Part shown: one piece after another, positions 8,891 through 49,620 of the stretch
How positions within the stretch are numbered: the stretch's first letter is position 1
Layout: each line of letters begins with the position of its first letter
From: a virus
Strand: one strand, 5' to 3'
DNA length: 49,620 bases
Virus record (IMG/VR): IMGVR_UViG_3300027674_000005
Location: 1-49,620 of that record
Translations under genes and position numbers: made by a program
Notes under the pieces: generated by a model
The model's input: the letters and a program-made list of their open reading frames with translations, nothing else
Told to the model about the DNA's origin: nothing
Database searches by the model: none

Positions 8891-9297
8891 GTTCGTCCTC
8901 CGTTGCACATACGGGGGGCGGCTACTATCAGGGAGCAGATGAAAGCCTTTGCCGGACCCTCGGTTAATCCGAATAGGGCGCAGGTATTCTGCTACGTGCT
9001 GTGACGGGAGTAACCGCCCCTCGTATGGCCCTTTTCTTTGAAAAGTGAAAAAGGACAAAATGTCTTTGACGTTTCACAGTCTGCTTGAAGTATCTCCCTA
9101 CCATCGCTGGTGTAAGGGCTCACCCCACTTATCTCGTGACTGCTTGAGGGCTTCGCTATCTCGATCACTAGGCCATTGCGAAGAGGTGCGTACTGCACTT
9201 TCCGAGAGCAACTAATCTTCGTTATGTGCCCCTACTCATGGCCAGTGGGTCTGCTGCCCCTATCCGGGGCAACTGGCGACTTTCGGGGCGTAACTCT
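8891..9297. other. 407-base intergenic stretch
   Basis: No convincing gene on either strand. A 68-codon GTG-started minus frame (8992-9198) lacks a good binding site and has atypical composition. The gap holds a 6-bp GCCAGT...ACTGGC outer stem around a 7-bp TGCCCC-GATA-type inner hairpin (about 9239-9276) and a CTTTTC-TTT-GAAAAG inverted repeat near 9030-9045. It may hold a promoter or RNA element for the genes below, but none is clear. Confidence 0.5.
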
Positions 9298-9549: not shown

Positions 9550-10030
9550 CGCCATCCTCCTTGAGCAAGTCGTCGAGTACGTCATCGCCCTCGGCCTTTC
9601 CTTCTGCGCCCTTGATCCTCGCGATGATGGTTGCAACCCGTTCCGTGTTGCGCAACTTCGCTTGGGTGGCCTTGCTCATTCCCTTAACCAGCTTCTCGCT
9701 GTCGGCCACGTCGATGCCCTTCAGTTCGGCCAGTGCCTGCACAAGCGGACTGTACTTGCTAGTCCCTTCACCCTGCGTGCTCCACTTACCATCATCGAAG
9801 GCGTCACAAAGCGCGTCAACCTTCTCCACGGCCTTGTCCGTATCATCGGTGGCATTGACAGCGTTGAGTAGCTTCGTCTTTGCTCCGTAGGATGCGAATT
9901 GTTGCGTCAACGCATGGTCGGGGCTAAACGCCACGGACCGCTTCTGTCCATTGCTGAACGTGAGATGGTGTACGAAGCTACCATCCTCATGGTGCGTTGT
10001 CTCAATCTGTACTTTCGATGCCTTGGCCAT
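9527..10030 (-). CDS. conserved-type phage hypothetical protein
   Basis: 167 residues: beta-rich start (KVQIETTHHEDGSFVHHLTF then NGQKRSVAFSPDH) and helical C-terminal half, ending in an acidic then basic tail (DDLLKEDGGDEKRAA). I know similar 'HEDGS..H.L.F.NGQ' proteins from other phages as unnamed early proteins, but no function is established. It overlaps the upstream gene by 29 bases. Confidence 0.65.
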   Translation of the reverse strand: MAKASKVQIETTHHEDGSFVHHLTFSNGQKRSVAFSPDHALTQQFASYGAKTKLLNAVNATDDTDKAVEKVDALCDAFDDGKWSTQGEGTSKYSPLVQALAELKGIDVADSEKLVKGMSKATQAKLRNTERVATIIARIKGAEGKAEGDDVLDDLLKEDGGDEKRAA

Positions 10031-10409
10031 TCTCTAACTCCAATTTGTCTAAATCCCCCCAATCTACTTCCTGGGGGTCTGCTGTCATCGTGATCGGTGC
10101 CTCCATCGCTGCAACTTGCGCACGCATCTCCGGGGAATTCACACGATTGACGATAGTAACAAGATTCTGATTTATCTTGAAGGTGAAATACTTACAAGCC
10201 TTCGATAGTTCGTTGTCCGGCTCAAAGTGCAGTAGTGATTCTCGCAACCTCCATAGACGTGCCTTGGTATTGGTGGCTTGGTTCGGGGTATCGAACGTCA
10301 TCGTTAGCTTGCCGTGCTTCACAACGTAAAGCAAGTTCTGGAAATCTACGGGCAGAAATCGGTCAAGAGGCGTTGGGTTGCGTGCTCTCGGCTTCTTCTT
10401 TGTTGCCAT
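10002..10409 (-). CDS. hypothetical protein with basic N-terminus
   Basis: 135 residues. The basic start MATKKKPRARNPTPLDRFL leads to an alpha/beta body with the segment ATNTKARLWRLRESLLHFE. TTGGAG precedes the ATG. It is the first gene after the long AT-rich gap, so it may be expressed from a promoter there. Basic residues suggest nucleic-acid contact, which is not proven. Confidence 0.65.
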   Translation of the reverse strand: MATKKKPRARNPTPLDRFLPVDFQNLLYVVKHGKLTMTFDTPNQATNTKARLWRLRESLLHFEPDNELSKACKYFTFKINQNLVTIVNRVNSPEMRAQVAAMEAPITMTADPQEVDWGDLDKLELENGQGIESTD

Positions 10410-10541
10410 CTGGGCACTCCAAGGGGTTAGTTCATGAGAAGCAGTGTAGCATGGGTTTCGGTGGATTGTTGGCGTATTTTGATTGGTTTTTCGTATGGAG
10501 CGTATTGGTGTGATAGGCGTTACGGTGTCATATGGTTATTT

Positions 10542-10583
10542 TGGTCACATGGCTTTTTGACTATATCACTTCCGTAGGGTGGC
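10542..10583 (+). repeat. left arm of long imperfect inverted repeat
   Basis: Starts TGGTCACATGGCTTTTTGAC and continues CTATATCACT then GGGTGGC. The reverse complement of 10744-10786 reads TGGTCACATGACTTTATGAC, CTATATCACT, then GGGTGGC, so the arms agree at nearly every position of the first 29 bases. Weaker similarity continues inward to about 10625. Confidence 0.8.
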
Positions 10584-10644
10584 CCATTCCCCTATCCATC
10601 TCTTGTGATGAATAAAAAGTCTCACATCGTACGATATAGTGTGC

Positions 10645-10660
10645 TACTATATATATAGTA
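10645..10660. repeat. perfect 16-base AT palindrome
   Basis: TACTATATATATAGTA is its own reverse complement and lies close to the midpoint of the two inverted-repeat arms. It is a candidate DNA-unwinding or dimeric-protein site. Confidence 0.75.
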
Positions 10661-10743
10661 CTATGGGGACAGTATTATCTAAATATTATAAAAATTTTCA
10701 TACAGGAGAGTTTATTATCATAAGGAAAGGGGAGAGGGATATA

Positions 10744-10786
10744 TGCCACCCCCCGAGAGTGATATAGTCATAAAGTCATGTGACCA
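10744..10786 (-). repeat. right arm of long imperfect inverted repeat
   Basis: Mirror copy of 10542-10583 on the other strand, with a spacer of about 160 bases between the arms. Read outward from the centre the two arms give the same sequence, so two identical sites face in opposite directions. Confidence 0.8.
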
Positions 10787-10839
10787 CAGTAACGCCAATA
10801 CGCACAATATTTTCGATTTTTCCCTTCTCCCCATGACAA

Positions 10840-10860
10840 ACGCCACCTCCAGGGTGGCGT
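10840..10860 (-). terminator. hairpin after gene 10878-11030, possible terminator
   Basis: A perfect 8-bp stem ACGCCACC / GGTGGCGT with a 5-base loop, 17 bases after the stop of the upstream minus-strand gene. Only TTTGTC follows on the minus strand, so it is a weak intrinsic terminator or an RNA-end hairpin. Confidence 0.5.
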
Positions 10861-10877
10861 CGTTGTCAGTGCCCCTC

Positions 10878-11030
10878 TCACGGGAATAGGCGGTCGCTGA
10901 CGGCACAGAAGAACCAGACTGAGGCGAGGATACCTACACCACTGACGGCCTCCCTACGGCCCGTTAAAACGGCCCACCTCGTGTACAGGATCGACGCCAC
11001 CAGACACCCTATCAGCAATAACGTCTTCAT
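10878..11030 (-). CDS. 50-residue membrane protein
   Basis: MKTLLLIGCLVASILYTRWA then a basic loop (LTGRREA) and a second hydrophobic segment (VSGVGILASVWFFCAVSD). Two predicted transmembrane spans, or a lipoprotein-like start (LLIGC) plus one span. GGGGAAGG precedes the ATG and sits just after the previous stop. It is the last gene before the inverted-repeat region. No family recognised. Confidence 0.7.
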   Translation of the reverse strand: MKTLLLIGCLVASILYTRWAVLTGRREAVSGVGILASVWFFCAVSDRLFP

Positions 11031-11039
11031 AGCCTTCCC

Positions 11040-11225
11040 CTAACTGTGTCTCGTCCTACACGCCCCCGCCTCGATCAGTGCGTGCGCCGTCCTCCCATAG
11101 CATCCTTGCAATTGCCACGCCAATCCGTTATCAATCAATGCCTGAAACAGGTCAATGGTATCCGCCTCGTCCAATTCCCCCTGCTCCCATGCAATCATTT
11201 TGTCCAACTGATCCACTTGTTTCAT
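11040..11225 (-). CDS. conserved small phage protein (LQGxYGRTA family)
   Basis: 61 residues: LDKMIAWEQGELDEADTI, then LFQALIDNGLAWQLQGCYGR and TAHALIEAG. This 'IAxExGELD...LFxxLIxxGLAWxLQGxYGRTAxxLIExG' pattern is a widespread small phage protein family of unknown function (I recall it as a DUF family, number not certain). ATGA overlap with the upstream gene. Confidence 0.75.
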   Translation of the reverse strand: MKQVDQLDKMIAWEQGELDEADTIDLFQALIDNGLAWQLQGCYGRTAHALIEAGACRTRHS

Positions 11226-11461
11226 GATGCATCCTCCATTAGATAGAGTTGGTCGGCAGGGTTGTTCAACGTTGATACGCGGAAGGGTTTTCCATACCCG
11301 ACAATGGGCTCTAGTACCTTGTCAATGTCACTTAATACGCCCCGTGGACCGCTAACATAGCCCGTAACGTGGTGCCCCAATAAGCGGCACAAATACAATG
11401 CCTCCTTGTGGGATAACGTCACGCGGACGTTCCCCTTTTCCGTCATCTTTGCCTTAGCCAT
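11222..11461 (-). CDS. small hypothetical protein
   Basis: 79 residues, MAKAKMTEKGNVRVTLSHKE... with a helix carrying ALYLCRLLGHHVTGYVSGPR. GGAGGAGG precedes the ATG. No recognised domain. Confidence 0.6.
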   Translation of the reverse strand: MAKAKMTEKGNVRVTLSHKEALYLCRLLGHHVTGYVSGPRGVLSDIDKVLEPIVGYGKPFRVSTLNNPADQLYLMEDAS

Positions 11462-11648
11462 TACACACCTCCTCCGGGCCTATGGCCCCTTTAACTTCCT
11501 TCGTGAACGAGACATAACACATTGGGAATGCGGCCAGTGCCTGCGCCAATGCGTCAATCTCACGGTCCGCCCTCACGGGAATCACAAAATCCCCCACTAC
11601 GTTGGGCTGACACAAGTGCACCTCATACAACCGGGTTCCGGTGGTCAT
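11454..11648 (-). CDS. small hypothetical protein
   Basis: 64 residues, MTTGTRLYEVHLCQPNVVGD... with a helix REIDALAQALAAFPM. Start set by GGAG 8 bases upstream and an ATGA overlap. The strand-helix order suggests a small alpha/beta fold. No family recognised. Confidence 0.6.
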   Translation of the reverse strand: MTTGTRLYEVHLCQPNVVGDFVIPVRADREIDALAQALAAFPMCYVSFTKEVKGAIGPEEVCNG

Positions 11649-11968
11649 ATCTTGAACTCCATTCCATCGATAAAGGGCACTTCGTCCTGCCAATACTGCC
11701 CATTCCAGTCCTGGTGCTCATGGGGAAGGTGAAAGGACACGTACCATTCCCCCTTGCGCTGATATACGGTAAACCTCCCGTTGCAGTATTCCTTGGCAAA
11801 CTGGTTCATCCTTGTCTTCGTCGTTACGGTCCTCCATCCGCCACTGTTCAGCCATACCGTGTTGCCCCTTTTACACACAATAGTCGTCCTATGCAGGATA
11901 CAAACCAACTCTTCCCCCGACGAACGAACAGTGGTGTTGTTGCTCGATACCCTCTGCGTTTGTCCCAT
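11645..11968 (-). CDS. conserved phage protein with NSGGWRTVTTKTRMNQF motif
   Basis: 107 residues starting MGQTQRVSSNNTTVRSSGEE. The middle motif NSGGWRTVTTKTRMNQFA and the following GRFTVYQRKGEWYVSFH occur in a family of small phage proteins that I recognise as conserved but unnamed. GGAGGTGA before the ATG is a near-perfect binding site, and it lies inside the end of the 35-residue gene upstream. The 'TTK.RMNQ' helix may bind nucleic acid (inference). Confidence 0.7.
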   Translation of the reverse strand: MGQTQRVSSNNTTVRSSGEELVCILHRTTIVCKRGNTVWLNSGGWRTVTTKTRMNQFAKEYCNGRFTVYQRKGEWYVSFHLPHEHQDWNGQYWQDEVPFIDGMEFKI

Positions 11969-11969
11969 T

Positions 11970-12077
11970 TCAATCACCTCCGATGATGTCCCACAGCAAC
12001 CACAATAGCGCAGCACAGAAGCCTGCGCCAATTAGGGTTAACCCGAATATGTACGCAATCTCAAGTACCGTGTTCAT
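11970..12077 (-). CDS. 35-residue membrane peptide
   Basis: MNTVLEIAYIFGLTLIGAGF followed by CAALLWLLWDIIGGD: one long transmembrane helix with an acidic end. It overlaps the JAMM-like gene's stop as ATGA and has no separate binding site, so it probably depends on coupling. Its end contains the binding site of the next gene. Confidence 0.6.
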   Translation of the reverse strand: MNTVLEIAYIFGLTLIGAGFCAALLWLLWDIIGGD

Positions 12078-12691
12078 AGTGCGTCCCAACGTGTCAATAT
12101 GGCCCGGGCCTTCGGCCCCAACTGCACGTGGTAATCTTTCAGTGCGCCTACACGGGCGAGGTACGCATTCATCTTGTGCGCCAACACCACATACCGCTCG
12201 TCATTCTTATCTTTCCACGTGTTGAGCCATTGCTGAAACGCCTTATCGGTCGTGATCGTCGGATCTTCCCGTTGTGCCACTTCACTGACAATTTCCTGAC
12301 TCAATTGGTGCACAGCAGGCAATATCATGAATTCCAACATGAAACCATCCCGTGGTGCCTTAAACCCTTGTGACCATGAGATGGTGTCATCGTCGCAACA
12401 GGCGGCAAGGTTCCCCCACGCATCGTAGCCCATGATACAAGTGAAATCGGCGTCGCTCAGTTCCGTTGTAAGGCCCGGGTGGCAATGGACCAGTAACACG
12501 TCCTGTAGCTTGCCACAGTACGATTCCGGCCCATCGACACGTTGGTTGGTGCCATTAACTTCAAAGACCCTGGTGCCATTCCGCCTTAGGGCGATTAGCT
12601 TCTCCTTCCCCTCTTTAATGCCATAAGCCCTCACGTCCGCTATCGCCTCATGAATCCCTTCAAAGGGGGGTAGTTCAAATGCCGTGTCCAT
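12074..12691 (-). CDS. JAMM/MPN-like metalloprotease-fold protein
   Basis: 205 residues. VLLVHCHPG with H69 and H71, followed by TELSDADF with S79 and D82, gives the H-x-H-x7-S-x2-D zinc motif of JAB/MPN (JAMM) domains, found in deubiquitinase-like, RadC-like and phage proteins. The usual upstream catalytic Glu is not certain (E12, E15 or E44 could serve). The C-terminal half is helical. Functions range from isopeptidase to nucleic-acid-linked roles, so substrate is unknown. TAATG overlap with the 21-residue gene upstream. Confidence 0.65.
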   Translation of the reverse strand: MDTAFELPPFEGIHEAIADVRAYGIKEGKEKLIALRRNGTRVFEVNGTNQRVDGPESYCGKLQDVLLVHCHPGLTTELSDADFTCIMGYDAWGNLAACCDDDTISWSQGFKAPRDGFMLEFMILPAVHQLSQEIVSEVAQREDPTITTDKAFQQWLNTWKDKNDERYVVLAHKMNAYLARVGALKDYHVQLGPKARAILTRWDAL

Positions 12692-12756
12692 TATCGTTCT
12701 CCGCGTTTAAACCACAAAGCAACCATCACCAATGCTGCTGTCACGAGTGTGGCCAT
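12691..12756 (-). CDS. 21-residue membrane peptide
   Basis: MATLVTAALVMVALWFKRGE plus a terminal R: one hydrophobic helix with a positive cytoplasmic-type end. GGAG lies 9 bases upstream and the stop overlaps the next ATG (TAATG). Very short, so the call rests on its binding site, overlap and membrane-helix composition. Confidence 0.5.
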   Translation of the reverse strand: MATLVTAALVMVALWFKRGER

Positions 12757-12762
12757 GTTCCA

Positions 12763-12927
12763 TTACTCCAATCCGTAAATGAGGCGGTCAAGGTGTGGCG
12801 CAAGGGCCAATTCTGCCGCCATTTTCGCGCTTTCGGCCTTTGTGATCCACCATACGGCAATGCCAATGGTGATGATGGCGCATGATGCGATGATGCGATG
12901 CTTCAACGGTACGTGTTTTAGATGCAT
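12763..12927 (-). CDS. 54-residue membrane protein
   Basis: MHLKHVPLKHRIIASCAIIT then IGIAVWWITKAESAKM and a polar helical end. One transmembrane helix with a basic N-terminus. AGGGG precedes the ATG. It heads a set of three short membrane proteins (54, 21 and 35 residues) around the JAMM-like gene. Confidence 0.65.
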   Translation of the reverse strand: MHLKHVPLKHRIIASCAIITIGIAVWWITKAESAKMAAELALAPHLDRLIYGLE

Positions 12928-13041
12928 CCTGTTCCCCTGGTTGGTCGGCTTCGCCGTGGTGCCTGTACTACGCTTTAAGATTAAGGCGGATTGACCATGA
13001 TGCCAATCCGTATTAACCCTACTTGGTGCCTAGCTTCGCGT

Positions 13042-46078: not shown

Positions 46079-47243
46079 AGGCTTGCTCACCTCCCTTCGT
46101 ACACGTCACAATCATCCGGGACTTCAACAGTCCCATCAACAGTTCCTTAAATCCCTTGTCCGTAGGTGCCACGCTTCTCATGAAGCGTGCTGCCTCATTC
46201 ATTGTGACACCAGCAGCGCCTCCTCTGGTGATGAAATCAAGTAGCCTATCGGAATTGTTAGATGCCTCACTTCGTCCGATGCGATCAAATATAGATGGTA
46301 GGCACTGTTCGAGTCGAGATACTTCGGCTTCGGCACGCTGAAGGTCTTCTGCGGTGATGACTCGTTGGTCTCCCCGTGCCGCAGAGAGGACCATCGCGAG
46401 CTTATGGATGTGCGACTGCTTCCTTGCATTCCATCCACCAAAGCGGCTATCATCTTTCCCTTTCGCGTGAAGAACGTTGTGGGCTTCATACCAGTCAGTG
46501 CCCCACGCCAAAGCACTCTTGTCCAGCTTAAATTCTCCTTCCATGCGCCCAATTGCATTAAGATCATCAACCAAGTGGCGGTGCAACTCTTTCCGTAAGG
46601 GTGTATCTCCCGTAGGGTAGGCAATGAGTTGCCGTTTCGATTCCGCGTAGACCCACACGATACGCGAGACAAGCCCACCATCAAGCATGTAGGCCGGAAA
46701 GTTTCCACTGATCCAGGACGGTGTAGTACACGCCAGGAGATTGAGGAATGGGGAAGATATTGTCTGTTGTCCATCTGCCTTTGTCGCCTTTTCAATTGAG
46801 CCACAGTCCCACATGGTGTTGAGCATGTCCATCATTTCGTTGTCGTCGGGACGAATGAGGTTACCAAGCTCGCCGGAGTGGATCGTCAGGGAGTACGTGG
46901 CTTCATTCTCCCCATTGTAGTTTGTAATAGTCTCGGCCTTCAATAAGCATTCGATCAAGGCTTGCCATGTGGTAGTTGACGGCCCGAAGATCACGCCATC
47001 CACCTTTCGGAGCATCCTCATGGCAGTACCAGTGGTGGTCGTTTTTGCAATAATCCCTGGAGGAGCCACAAGAACTACATACATGTTTGGAAACCACCAG
47101 AAATCTCCTTGCGATACGTAGCACTTACGCTGAAGAGCCCCCGCTATTGCGGAGGCCCCGGACCAAAACAACACGTGATTGGGCGCCTCTCCTGCCTGCC
47201 CATACTCGATGAAACCATCGAGCCAATTGTCAACCTTCCTCAT
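46059..47243 (-). CDS. DUF3987-like primase/helicase ATPase
   Basis: 394 residues. MRKVDNWLDGFIEY..., with APNHVLFWSGASAIAGALQR, and YVVLVAPPGIIAKTTTTG as a P-loop (APPGxxxKTT near 60-70), IHSGELGNL and NLLACTTPSWI match the family of DUF3987 P-loop ATPases in phages, thought to serve as replicative helicase or primase-helicase. The C-terminus has a wHTH-like region. The start follows GGGGGA and overlaps the polymerase gene's stop (ATGA). Its end overlaps the endolysin end. Confidence 0.78.
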   Translation of the reverse strand: MRKVDNWLDGFIEYGQAGEAPNHVLFWSGASAIAGALQRKCYVSQGDFWWFPNMYVVLVAPPGIIAKTTTTGTAMRMLRKVDGVIFGPSTTTWQALIECLLKAETITNYNGENEATYSLTIHSGELGNLIRPDDNEMMDMLNTMWDCGSIEKATKADGQQTISSPFLNLLACTTPSWISGNFPAYMLDGGLVSRIVWVYAESKRQLIAYPTGDTPLRKELHRHLVDDLNAIGRMEGEFKLDKSALAWGTDWYEAHNVLHAKGKDDSRFGGWNARKQSHIHKLAMVLSAARGDQRVITAEDLQRAEAEVSRLEQCLPSIFDRIGRSEASNNSDRLLDFITRGGAAGVTMNEAARFMRSVAPTDKGFKELLMGLLKSRMIVTCTKGGEQAFRVQLF

Positions 47244-47956
47244 TGACAATCCCCCCAACTTTTCGTAGAAGTTTTTATCCCTATTGGAATTAATAGCGGG
47301 TCATCATATGGAATAGGAACCTTGCACTGTTCTCTGATAGAAAGTTCATGCAATTCCTTATTTTCTATCGGGTACTGTAGAGTCAGTGAGTCGTGAACTT
47401 GTAAAAGCACCTCTACTCGGGGCAGGTTAGAGTCAACATTGACATATATCTTGTTGATAAGCACAGCAATCGACGATTGAGGTAGCCATGCTACCATTTC
47501 ATTGAGCGTATTCCCCTCAATCCTATCGAACCACTTCTTCCTATAACCAAACGCATTAGAAACAGTCGCAGTCCGTATACACTTCTTAACAAAATCCTCC
47601 TGCCACTTTTGAATCTCGGGGAACATCCCAAAGTACCATCTCTGAATCCGTTCAACTTCTTTGACCAGTAGCCCGCACTGCCCCGCAATAGTCGGTGCCT
47701 TACCGAGATAGTTCGTCGCATGGCACAGTTTTTTGAACGTATAGTAATGGGGCGAAGCCTTGTTGATCGACGGATCATGAAAGTACTCCCTTGCGATAAC
47801 GAGATAGGGCTTCAAACCTTCGCGAAAAAGGTCCTTCATCCCTTGGCAGTTCGATTCCTGGACAACTATCCTCAGGTCCGCCGAGTCCAGATCCAGATCC
47901 CCCATCATCATGCCTTCGTCCGGCACGAACATCTTCCTCACATTGGGCATCGACAT
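47240..47956 (-). CDS. family A DNA polymerase, catalytic palm/fingers part (split gene, C-terminal)
   Basis: 238 residues with the catalytic part of family A DNA polymerase. RKMFVPDEG near 8-15, motif A GDLDLDSADLRIV at 19-31 (D22 aligns with the catalytic Asp), motif B KKLCHATNYLGKAPTIA near 75-91, and motif C LLQVHDSL at 184-191 (D189). The rest of the polymerase (UDG, exonuclease, thumb) is in a separate gene at 48338-49620. The split falls between NLQNI and the RK.FVP.EG segment, normally contiguous. ATG at 47956 is in frame with motif A and preceded by GGTGG. The upstream gene overlaps it by 182 bases out of frame. Confidence 0.9.
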   Translation of the reverse strand: MSMPNVRKMFVPDEGMMMGDLDLDSADLRIVVQESNCQGMKDLFREGLKPYLVIAREYFHDPSINKASPHYYTFKKLCHATNYLGKAPTIAGQCGLLVKEVERIQRWYFGMFPEIQKWQEDFVKKCIRTATVSNAFGYRKKWFDRIEGNTLNEMVAWLPQSSIAVLINKIYVNVDSNLPRVEVLLQVHDSLTLQYPIENKELHELSIREQCKVPIPYDDPLLIPIGIKTSTKSWGDCQ

Positions 47957-48326
47957 CTGAGACCACCATTCCTTTCATTGTTTGTTCAAGGTCCGTCAAC
48001 GCACCAATGGAGTCTTTGAATGCGTCACGGGGCTTGTGCCACTGGTTCCCGCCGTTGTGTCCACCACGACGAGCCCATTCGTTAGGGTTGAACGGGTTTG
48101 GTCCTAGCTTGTACAGCAGAGAGGGCTTCTTCCCACCCTCCAGGCGCTTCTCGGGGCATCGTTGTAGCATTCCCAAGTGCTCCATCTTCCTGATGGCTAC
48201 ACCGATACAGTCCTCGCCTAGTTGCAACTCTCTTCGTAGCTCCACTCTGGTGGCGCAACCCTTGTCTACGATGTATTCATTGATCCGTTCTGCTGCGAAC
48301 GGCACCTTAGGGTCTTTGAGTCCCAT
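47775..48326 (-). CDS. winged-helix-like protein between polymerase halves
   Basis: 183 residues. Residues 1-75 (KVPFAAERINEYIVDKGCAT, then RVELRRELQLGEDCIGVAIR, and KMEHLGMLQRCPEKR) read as a winged helix, then PNPFNPNEWARRGGHNGGNQW, a motif I associate with short phage replication-region proteins. From about residue 122 the frame is the out-of-frame reading of polymerase motif A DNA and looks unselected. The start MGLKDPK follows GAGGA. An ATG 4 codons upstream overlaps the polymerase stop (TAATG). It separates the two polymerase parts. Confidence 0.72.
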   Translation of the reverse strand: MGLKDPKVPFAAERINEYIVDKGCATRVELRRELQLGEDCIGVAIRKMEHLGMLQRCPEKRLEGGKKPSLLYKLGPNPFNPNEWARRGGHNGGNQWHKPRDAFKDSIGALTDLEQTMKGMVVSDVDAQCEEDVRAGRRHDDGGSGSGLGGPEDSCPGIELPRDEGPFSRRFEALSRYRKGVLS

Positions 48327-48337
48327 TCTTATCCTCA

Positions 48338-49620
48338 TTAGTCACCAGACGTTATGTTCTGCAAATTACAACCTGATCCGAAGGCATCGGTGCTGCTAGA
48401 GAATCTAAAAGTGATGGTCCCTGTAATGTTGTACGAGCAGTGGATGCGCCCATCATACCCAATCGCGTTTGACTTAAGTGCATTCGACGCGAGGGTTTCA
48501 CAGCTACGAAATTCTTTGATACGCCGTACCACAGGGAACAGTATCGGTTCCTTACTGGCAATCTTATAGAGCGCCTCGTCGTCACAGGATAGTGCCTTCG
48601 TTTTTCTATTCCGTACGGGTGCAACACCCATCTCCTCATAGAAGAAATGCTGCATCTGTTTCGACGACTTCGGGTTAAGGGCATAACCGACCATCTCCGT
48701 GACCTCAGACTGTAACGTGTTCGCATGATCCTTCAACTCCTTCAACATCCTTTGGCGTACTTCGTTGTCCACTCGAACACCACGAGCCATAGTCCGAAGA
48801 ACAGGTGTAAAGAGCGATTGTTGAAAGTCGTGTTGCGTACGCAAGCCCATTCGATCGACCACTTCTTGTAGCCTCGTATCGGCCTCAAACGTCCTGATGC
48901 AATCCTCACAGTTGTACGCCCAATACTTATCTTCATCCTGATCGGCTCCCTTGTCCCATTCCTTGCCGTCATCCTTCCAGTAGACGTACCACTCACAGTA
49001 CATCGACGCGATGTAGTCTAGCGATTTGGGCATTCCCGTGAAACATACATGCTGGGCAACCATAGTGTCACGCACGTTTCGCGGGATGAAGTGCCAATGG
49101 CGAAGGATATATTGCGAGTCGTAAATAAAGTTCTGCCCGACTGTGAGTACATTCGGGTTTGTGAGTAGCCGATAGAGCAGCCACACAATCTCAGCCTCCT
49201 CCCCTTCACTCCAGTAGCCTTGGGGGTTCTCGACGCAGAGCAAAGGGATACAGATAGCATCGGTGTTACTCCAGGCAATGCCAAGGCACGCTATGTGACC
49301 GGCACGGGTTTCAATGTCACAAGCCAGCTTCAAGGGGCCTTGTTGACTCGCTTGATAGAGGCTTTCGAGAGATTCCCGCACTTGGGACATCGTAGGCCGT
49401 ATTGTAAAGTTCCATGTTGGTCGAACAGGAGCCCTACCAGCAGCATCGGTGACACGCCGCAAGTCCTGCACGCAACATGGCTTAGATGCCCGTTGTCGCA
49501 AGACACGGGAGGGGTGATAGGCAGGTATGACAAGGCCGTGCTCCGTTTCGAGATACGATCCCCTCCACTTGTCAACGCTGGTGAGACCAGTGAGTGCCCA
49601 CAAGGCAAGATCACCGAGGG
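48338..49620 (-). CDS. UDG-DNA polymerase fusion: UDG C-terminus, 3'-5' exonuclease and thumb (split gene, N-terminal)
   Basis: Continues across the seam from 1-453. Numbering from the first internal start (49603): ALTGLTSVDKWRGS and IPAYHPSRVLRQ near residues 3-37 are the C-terminal half of a UDG (HPS motif). LACDIET at 93-99 is Exo I (D96, E98), VGQNFIYDSQYI near 155-166 is Exo II (D162), and YNCEDC near 230-235 is Exo III (Y230, D234). A thumb-like helical stretch follows, and the gene ends at NLQNITSGD before a TAA. The palm motifs A, B and C are missing and lie in 47240-47956. Proofreading residues look intact. A codon for LGDLALW precedes the first start and fits the UDG consensus. Confidence 0.88.
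   Translation of the reverse strand, partial: LGDLALWALTGLTSVDKWRGSYLETEHGLVIPAYHPSRVLRQRASKPCCVQDLRRVTDAAGRAPVRPTWNFTIRPTMSQVRESLESLYQASQQGPLKLACDIETRAGHIACLGIAWSNTDAICIPLLCVENPQGYWSEGEEAEIVWLLYRLLTNPNVLTVGQNFIYDSQYILRHWHFIPRNVRDTMVAQHVCFTGMPKSLDYIASMYCEWYVYWKDDGKEWDKGADQDEDKYWAYNCEDCIRTFEADTRLQEVVDRMGLRTQHDFQQSLFTPVLRTMARGVRVDNEVRQRMLKELKDHANTLQSEVTEMVGYALNPKSSKQMQHFFYEEMGVAPVRNRKTKALSCDDEALYKIASKEPILFPVVRRIKEFRSCETLASNALKSNAIGYDGRIHCSYNITGTITFRFSSSTDAFGSGCNLQNITSGD

Follow-up and report, generated by a model that had tools for sequence, protein, structure and literature searches.

An inverted repeat with arrays of 8-bp units around an AT-rich centre is a candidate replication origin in uncultured, probably lytic tailed phages

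In the R1 parC/ParR system, arrays of short tandem sites (direct repeats of 11 bp in parC) are arranged around a promoter, and the met boxes bound by MetJ are tandem sites of 8 bp. The replication origins of phage T7 are not known to contain iterons and use the phage's own RNA polymerase. Theta origins share a common theme, namely, repeated initiator sites beside unstable A+T-rich DNA, often with transcription nearby, and the iterons of plasmids are generally helically phased (PMC5043065). The origins oriL and oriR of phage SPP1 consist of direct repeats and an AT-rich DNA-unwinding element (PMC6316719). For most uncultured phages, the origins are unmapped. Here we describe an element of one such phage, a tailed and presumably lytic one, that we consider, with a probability of about 0.58, to be a replication origin that acts in cis and is present in a single copy, in which inverted iteron arrays surround an unwinding element.

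The window, that is, the whole analysed stretch of 49,620 nucleotides, is an IMG/VR phage record. Its matched genes encode terminase, portal, a GroES-like protein, a head-closure protein, endolysin and holin, along with pieces of a DNA polymerase, a Sak4-like protein and a primase/helicase. The scanned proteins gave no match to an integrase or a repressor, which suggests that this is a lytic tailed phage. The contig has no end repeat. The DNA polymerase gene (47240-49603, minus strand) is apparently split: two ORFs, 48338-49603 and 47240-47956, correspond to successive portions of phrog_17 and are separated by an ORF of 187 aa that has no match (47775-48338), and the annotation of OK172329 also contains two adjacent polymerase ORFs. 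A leftward gene group lies on either side of the element, which is located about 4 kb to the left of the terminase and is not adjoined by known replication genes. The coordinates of the element, its neighbours and its counterparts in looser relatives are collected in Table 1.

Table 1. Features of the element and its surroundings (window positions, unless another phage is named)
Feature	Position	Strand	Basis or remark
Gene A (135 aa), conserved next to the repeat; candidate for the binding protein	10002-10409	-	
Putative leftward extended -10 of gene A, TGCTACACT	10443-10451	-	sequence; consensus match only
Left arm of inverted repeat	10535-10597	+	
Left 8-bp array, GGTCACAT.GGCTTTTT.GACTATAT.CACT	10543-10570	+	8-bp periodicity; paired unit confined to repeat
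AT-rich centre, least stable 120 bp of contig; proposed unwinding element	10608-10727	.	stability ranking
Putative rightward promoter, CTCACA-18-TACTAT, extended -10 (TGC)	10621-10650	+	consensus match only
16-bp palindrome, TACTATATATATAGTA	10645-10660	.	sequence
Right arm of inverted repeat	10731-10793	-	
Right 8-bp array, GGTCACAT.GACTTTAT.GACTATAT.CACT	10758-10785	-	8-bp periodicity; paired unit confined to repeat
T-rich motif of right flank, approximately GAAATTTTCGTTTTCCC, similar in relatives	10806-10824	+	alignment
Strong hairpin right of repeat	10835-10867	.	window copy without T-run
Small predicted membrane protein ORF, right neighbour	10878-11030	-	similar ORFs in L008, L019
Spaced inverted repeat, second group, L066	6640-6890		
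Spaced inverted repeat, second group, L064	6585-6837		
Spaced inverted repeat, second group, L087	5535-5738		

The original prediction placed a long imperfect inverted repeat at 10542-10583 and 10744-10786. The repeat is real and larger than proposed, these segments being enclosed by two ungapped arms of 63 nt each that are 79% complementary. In a gapped alignment with its own reverse complement, the stretch 10535-10793 (259 nt) matches at 70% over 268 columns (E=3e-17), with a dyad centre at about 10664 and fainter symmetry outside the arms (10494-10511 with 10792-10809, and 10513-10527 with 10785-10799). It is the longest inverted repeat of the 49.6-kb contig, the runners-up measuring 24 and 23 nt, and the other gap, 8891-9297, which had been said to lack symmetry, indeed holds no reportable inverted repeat. 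The local self-alignment score stands out from shuffles with a z of 13.7, and the folding of the repeat was matched by none of 100 shuffles (z of -8.4 and -9.9, one for each strand). The 16-base palindrome around which the repeat was thought to be built does lie in the AT-rich centre, but about 11 bp off the dyad axis. Direct searches with the repeat sequence yielded no informative match in annotated phage records or in IMG/VR.

Searches with the terminase and with gene A, the neighbour of the repeat, gave four further gene-A lineages (contigs of L003, L019, L008 and L119/L120). With two looser relatives (L066/L064 and L087), the sample of five lineages plus two is small and entirely metagenomic. 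Copies within the L008 group are identical at the repeat and were counted once. The original prediction was to stand or fall with conservation of the symmetry in related phages, and an inverted repeat is located directly upstream of gene A in every gene-A lineage (5/5, including the window); L119/L120, which came to light only once the pattern was already fixed, constitute an out-of-sample success. The repeat sequences of different phages are mostly not alignable: the architecture is kept while the sequence changes. In the looser relatives, the same general place is taken by an inverted repeat whose arms are spaced around an AT-rich centre; it lies upstream of a gene that is found there in place of gene A and encodes a small protein with weak helix-turn-helix matches.

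Close pairs of phages show strong purifying selection on the element. Between L119 and L120, 1 of 285 sites differs in the element compared to 151 of 2120 flanking sites (p=6e-8), and between L066 and L064, 3 of 251 sites differ in the element compared to 133 of 1180 in the surroundings (p=6e-9). Since the flanks are largely coding, the non-coding element, its centre included, is more constrained than the neighbouring genes.

Inverted repeats of L078, L062, L027, L095, L047 and L096 were rejected as instances of the same element, their flanks and layout being different. At 8325-8698 of L078, upstream of the terminase, units resembling TTAACTGTTAATAGTTAACAG form long inverted arrays whose ends are GC-rich; L062 contains a strong inverted repeat (E=2e-13) at 4-337, right at the start of the locus, that is not AT-rich.

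The arms contain tandem 8-bp units in all five gene-A lineages, with about three units where the pattern is clearest, such as GATTTATT.GATTTATT.GATTTATC in L119, TACAAGAG.TACAAGAA.TACAAGTT in L008 and GACTTTAT.GACTATAT.CACT in the window. Averaged over the ten arms of the gene-A group, lag-8 identity lies 0.25 above expectation, lag 16 being second. The lag was first noticed in L119 and L008; with arm coordinates taken directly from the repeat search, the held-out set of the window, L019 and L003 gives p=5e-5 (allowing any lag between 4 and 19), and lag 8 is the highest or second-highest in each of the five lineages. In the looser relatives, the arms lack the 8-bp period. The paired unit occurs in exactly two copies per genome, one in each arm and nowhere else, in all five genomes. 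The arms are 72-85% identical within one phage compared to 35-70% between phages, indicating that the two arms change together.

The AT-rich centre was assessed by nearest-neighbour stability in windows of 60 bp and 120 bp across whole contigs. The least stable 60 bp of the window contig are 10644-10703, and the least stable 60-bp site falls within the element in 7/7 contigs ranked (G000, G001, G002, G003, G004, G005 and G007), two of which have a neighbour gene other than gene A; with 120-bp windows, the element ranks first in all ranked contigs except G005, where it is a close second. Of the features expected of iteron origins, an adjacent, intrinsically unstable AT-rich region is found in all seven contigs, and a short repeated site in several copies, putatively bound by protein, in the five lineages. 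A cluster of DnaA boxes, as expected of DnaA-dependent, oriC-type origins, is absent at all seven repeats: within 200 bp of each, exact boxes are lacking, and boxes with one mismatch number two at most. Among terminase loci of at least 19 kb, the least stable site lies no more than 7 kb upstream of the terminase in 18 of 23.

In a calibration on T7, the four least stable 60-bp sites were the phiOL, phi1.1, phi6.5 and phiOR regions, of which we take phi1.1 to be the primary origin; in lambda, the origin was missing from the top eight. Given this failure on lambda, the ranking of the least stable site is suggestive and falls short of proof, and AT-rich islands mark promoters too. Near-pure A/T palindromic tracts, two per record, were observed in two relatives, L012 (OK172329; 48.5 kb and 31.84 kb) and L011 (MW202796; 18.63 kb and 13.79 kb); they are the two least stable sites of the respective record, one upstream of the terminase and the other at a DnaB-like helicase gene.

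GC skew was discarded as evidence on the origin: the cumulative minimum of the window is at about 12-13 kb, and its relation to the repeat is not kept in relatives, the minimum lying near the repeat in G000 and G005 but the maximum in G001 and G002. Just to the right of the repeat, at 11000-13000, the GC skew is more strongly negative than anywhere else in the contig (-0.25 at 11-12 kb), and several relatives likewise have a steep C-rich stretch to the right of the repeat.

For the origin role that had been proposed from the outset, the conserved symmetry, the 8-bp arrays and the least stable centre in 7/7 contigs make a strong, albeit indirect, case that stops short of proof. A phage-encoded protein, with gene A as the first candidate, would bind the two facing arrays of tandem 8-bp sites; binding, perhaps aided by transcription from the central promoter or by DNA supercoiling, would open the AT-rich centre, and the replicative helicase/primase could then be loaded onto the opened DNA. 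The phage encodes its own primase/helicase and polymerase, which we count in favour of an origin. The 8-bp step, unlike that of plasmid iterons, is not helically phased and counts against it, as do the distance from known replication genes, the lack of exact DnaA boxes, the lack of a conserved GC-skew turning point at the site, the lack of the 8-bp period in the looser relatives and the restriction of a clear TTGACA promoter to three of the five lineages.

Gene A is an attractive candidate for the binding protein, being adjacent and conserved, with a net charge of +9 over the first 100 residues and a compact predicted core. It belongs to no Pfam or PHROG family. A search with the single protein gave no matches, whereas alignment-based searches did find relatives; there was no match in annotated phages, including Alcaligenes phage vB_Af_QDWS535, the closest annotated cultured relative among those encountered, and none in GTDB genomes by a pattern-based search. 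Foldseek returned no match below E 0.001 for the predicted fold, and the best VIA-align Z, 5.7, is in the range that can mean mere common arrangement. No initiator protein was found among the proteins scanned.

The foremost alternative, possible although in our estimate unlikely, is that the element controls transcription. A small phage regulator would bind both 8-bp arrays cooperatively and loop the DNA, repressing or activating two promoters, one that faces rightward in the centre and that of gene A immediately beyond the left arm, and thereby timing early transcription, with the AT-rich centre being promoter DNA. Consensus matches to promoters are indeed present in the centre, facing rightward, in L019 (TTGACA-17-TACTCT), L003 (TTGACA-17-TAGTCT) and L119 (TTGACA-17-TAATAT), and the site in the window is a weaker variant at the same placement; L008 has no promoter-like site of note in its centre, such that a clear TTGACA match is limited to three of the five gene-A lineages. 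Promoter-like sites also lie between the repeat and gene A, with L019 showing a consensus match (TTGACA-17-TACACT) at the place equivalent to the gene A -10 of the window. The position at an operon boundary is in line with such control, as is a leftward terminator-like hairpin that L119 and L008 carry at the place equivalent to the right-hand hairpin of the window. Tandem 8-bp sites, as in operator arrays of MetJ and other RHH proteins, are present and recall the met boxes; Pfam scans of the early proteins revealed no RHH family, although small divergent RHH proteins are easily missed. In SPP1, AT-rich islands flag transcription-control regions as well as origins (PMC6316719).

Against control of transcription, no conserved ORF was seen downstream of the rightward promoter in the centre, where the neighbouring genes are oriented the other way; the operator motif is found nowhere else in the genome; and being the least stable site in 7/7 contigs exceeds what a promoter requires. 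The original prediction of a dual operator serving both directions is weakened in particular, because the genes on both flanks are leftward and the site is therefore not a divergent intergenic gap or promoter region, though its centre does hold a sigma-70-like rightward promoter. An origin and a looped operator are not mutually exclusive; we favour the origin because the parts fit the general scheme of theta origins.

That the symmetry is explained by a long hairpin RNA, made by a transcript through the element and acting as a leader, antisense RNA or dsRNA decoy, appears very improbable. Both strands do fold far better than shuffles, but the mismatches across the dyad, summed over six phages (L064 being omitted as a near copy of L066), amount to 39 G-T, 30 A-C and 115 others, close to the ratio of about 1:1:4 expected without RNA pairing on either strand. 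Moreover, leftward transcripts should end before the element in L119 and L008, the central promoter starts within the loop, Rfam gave no match, and the 8-bp period is left unexplained. Given the terminator-like hairpin in L119 and L008 and the promoter-like sites that separate the repeat from gene A, leftward transcription would not have to span the repeat, and this, together with the balanced mismatches, argues that the symmetry is most likely read in double-stranded DNA.

We give equally little credence to a DNA-processing site for packaging (pac/cos), telomere resolution or partition. The element is present in a single copy a few kb from the terminase, and protelomerases use long palindromes; however, the contigs of every lineage continue through the site, no genome ends at the palindrome as at a protelomerase site, the end repeats of G002, G005 and G007 are elsewhere, and the scanned proteins gave no match to a protelomerase or a partition protein. 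A functionless palindrome, decaying or regrowing, whose symmetry is maintained by template switching during replication is hardly credible either: strand switching is known to correct quasipalindromes, a mutational process that would make the arms change together, but the same place in five lineages, the 8-bp units and conservation above that of the neighbouring genes would not be expected of neutral DNA.

Returning to the replication origin, we tentatively suggest that the element could represent a novel class of phage origins, in which mirror-image arrays of 8-bp iterons surround a promoter-containing unwinding element and are bound by an undescribed initiator family, gene A. Co-evolution of gene A with its site would account for the persistence of the architecture while the sequence turns over. 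A site that keeps its architecture and replaces its letters is overlooked by similarity searches, as the lack of informative matches in annotated phage records illustrates. For several related phages, the sequence predicts position, symmetry, 8-bp unit, unwinding element and candidate binder alike, and initiation can therefore be tested with a single short fragment of DNA and a single small protein.

Compared with described systems, the element resembles R1 parC and the met boxes in having short tandem arrays around a promoter, and shares the 8-bp step with the latter, but no homologue of ParR, ParM or MetJ was matched in the window phage. With the primary and secondary origins of T7, which are also the least stable sites of that genome, it has in common a promoter and an AT-rich region; it differs from them in its arrays, and the scanned proteins of the window phage (part of the ORFs of a contig that may be incomplete) gave no match to a single-subunit RNA polymerase. 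SPP1, also a lytic phage, likewise combines repeats with an AT-rich DNA-unwinding element, and its oriR is intergenic (PMC6316719). The repeats of SPP1 are direct and have a known binder, gp38, whereas the arrays of the window are inverted and their binder is putative. The likeness to the lambda ori would lie in repeated initiator sites that adjoin A+T-rich DNA prone to opening, with origin-activating transcription in or near it (PMC5043065). In lambda, however, four iterons of 18-19 bp lie on one side, within the initiator gene, whereas in the window, where no O-like gene was seen, two inverted 8-bp arrays flank AT-rich non-coding DNA.
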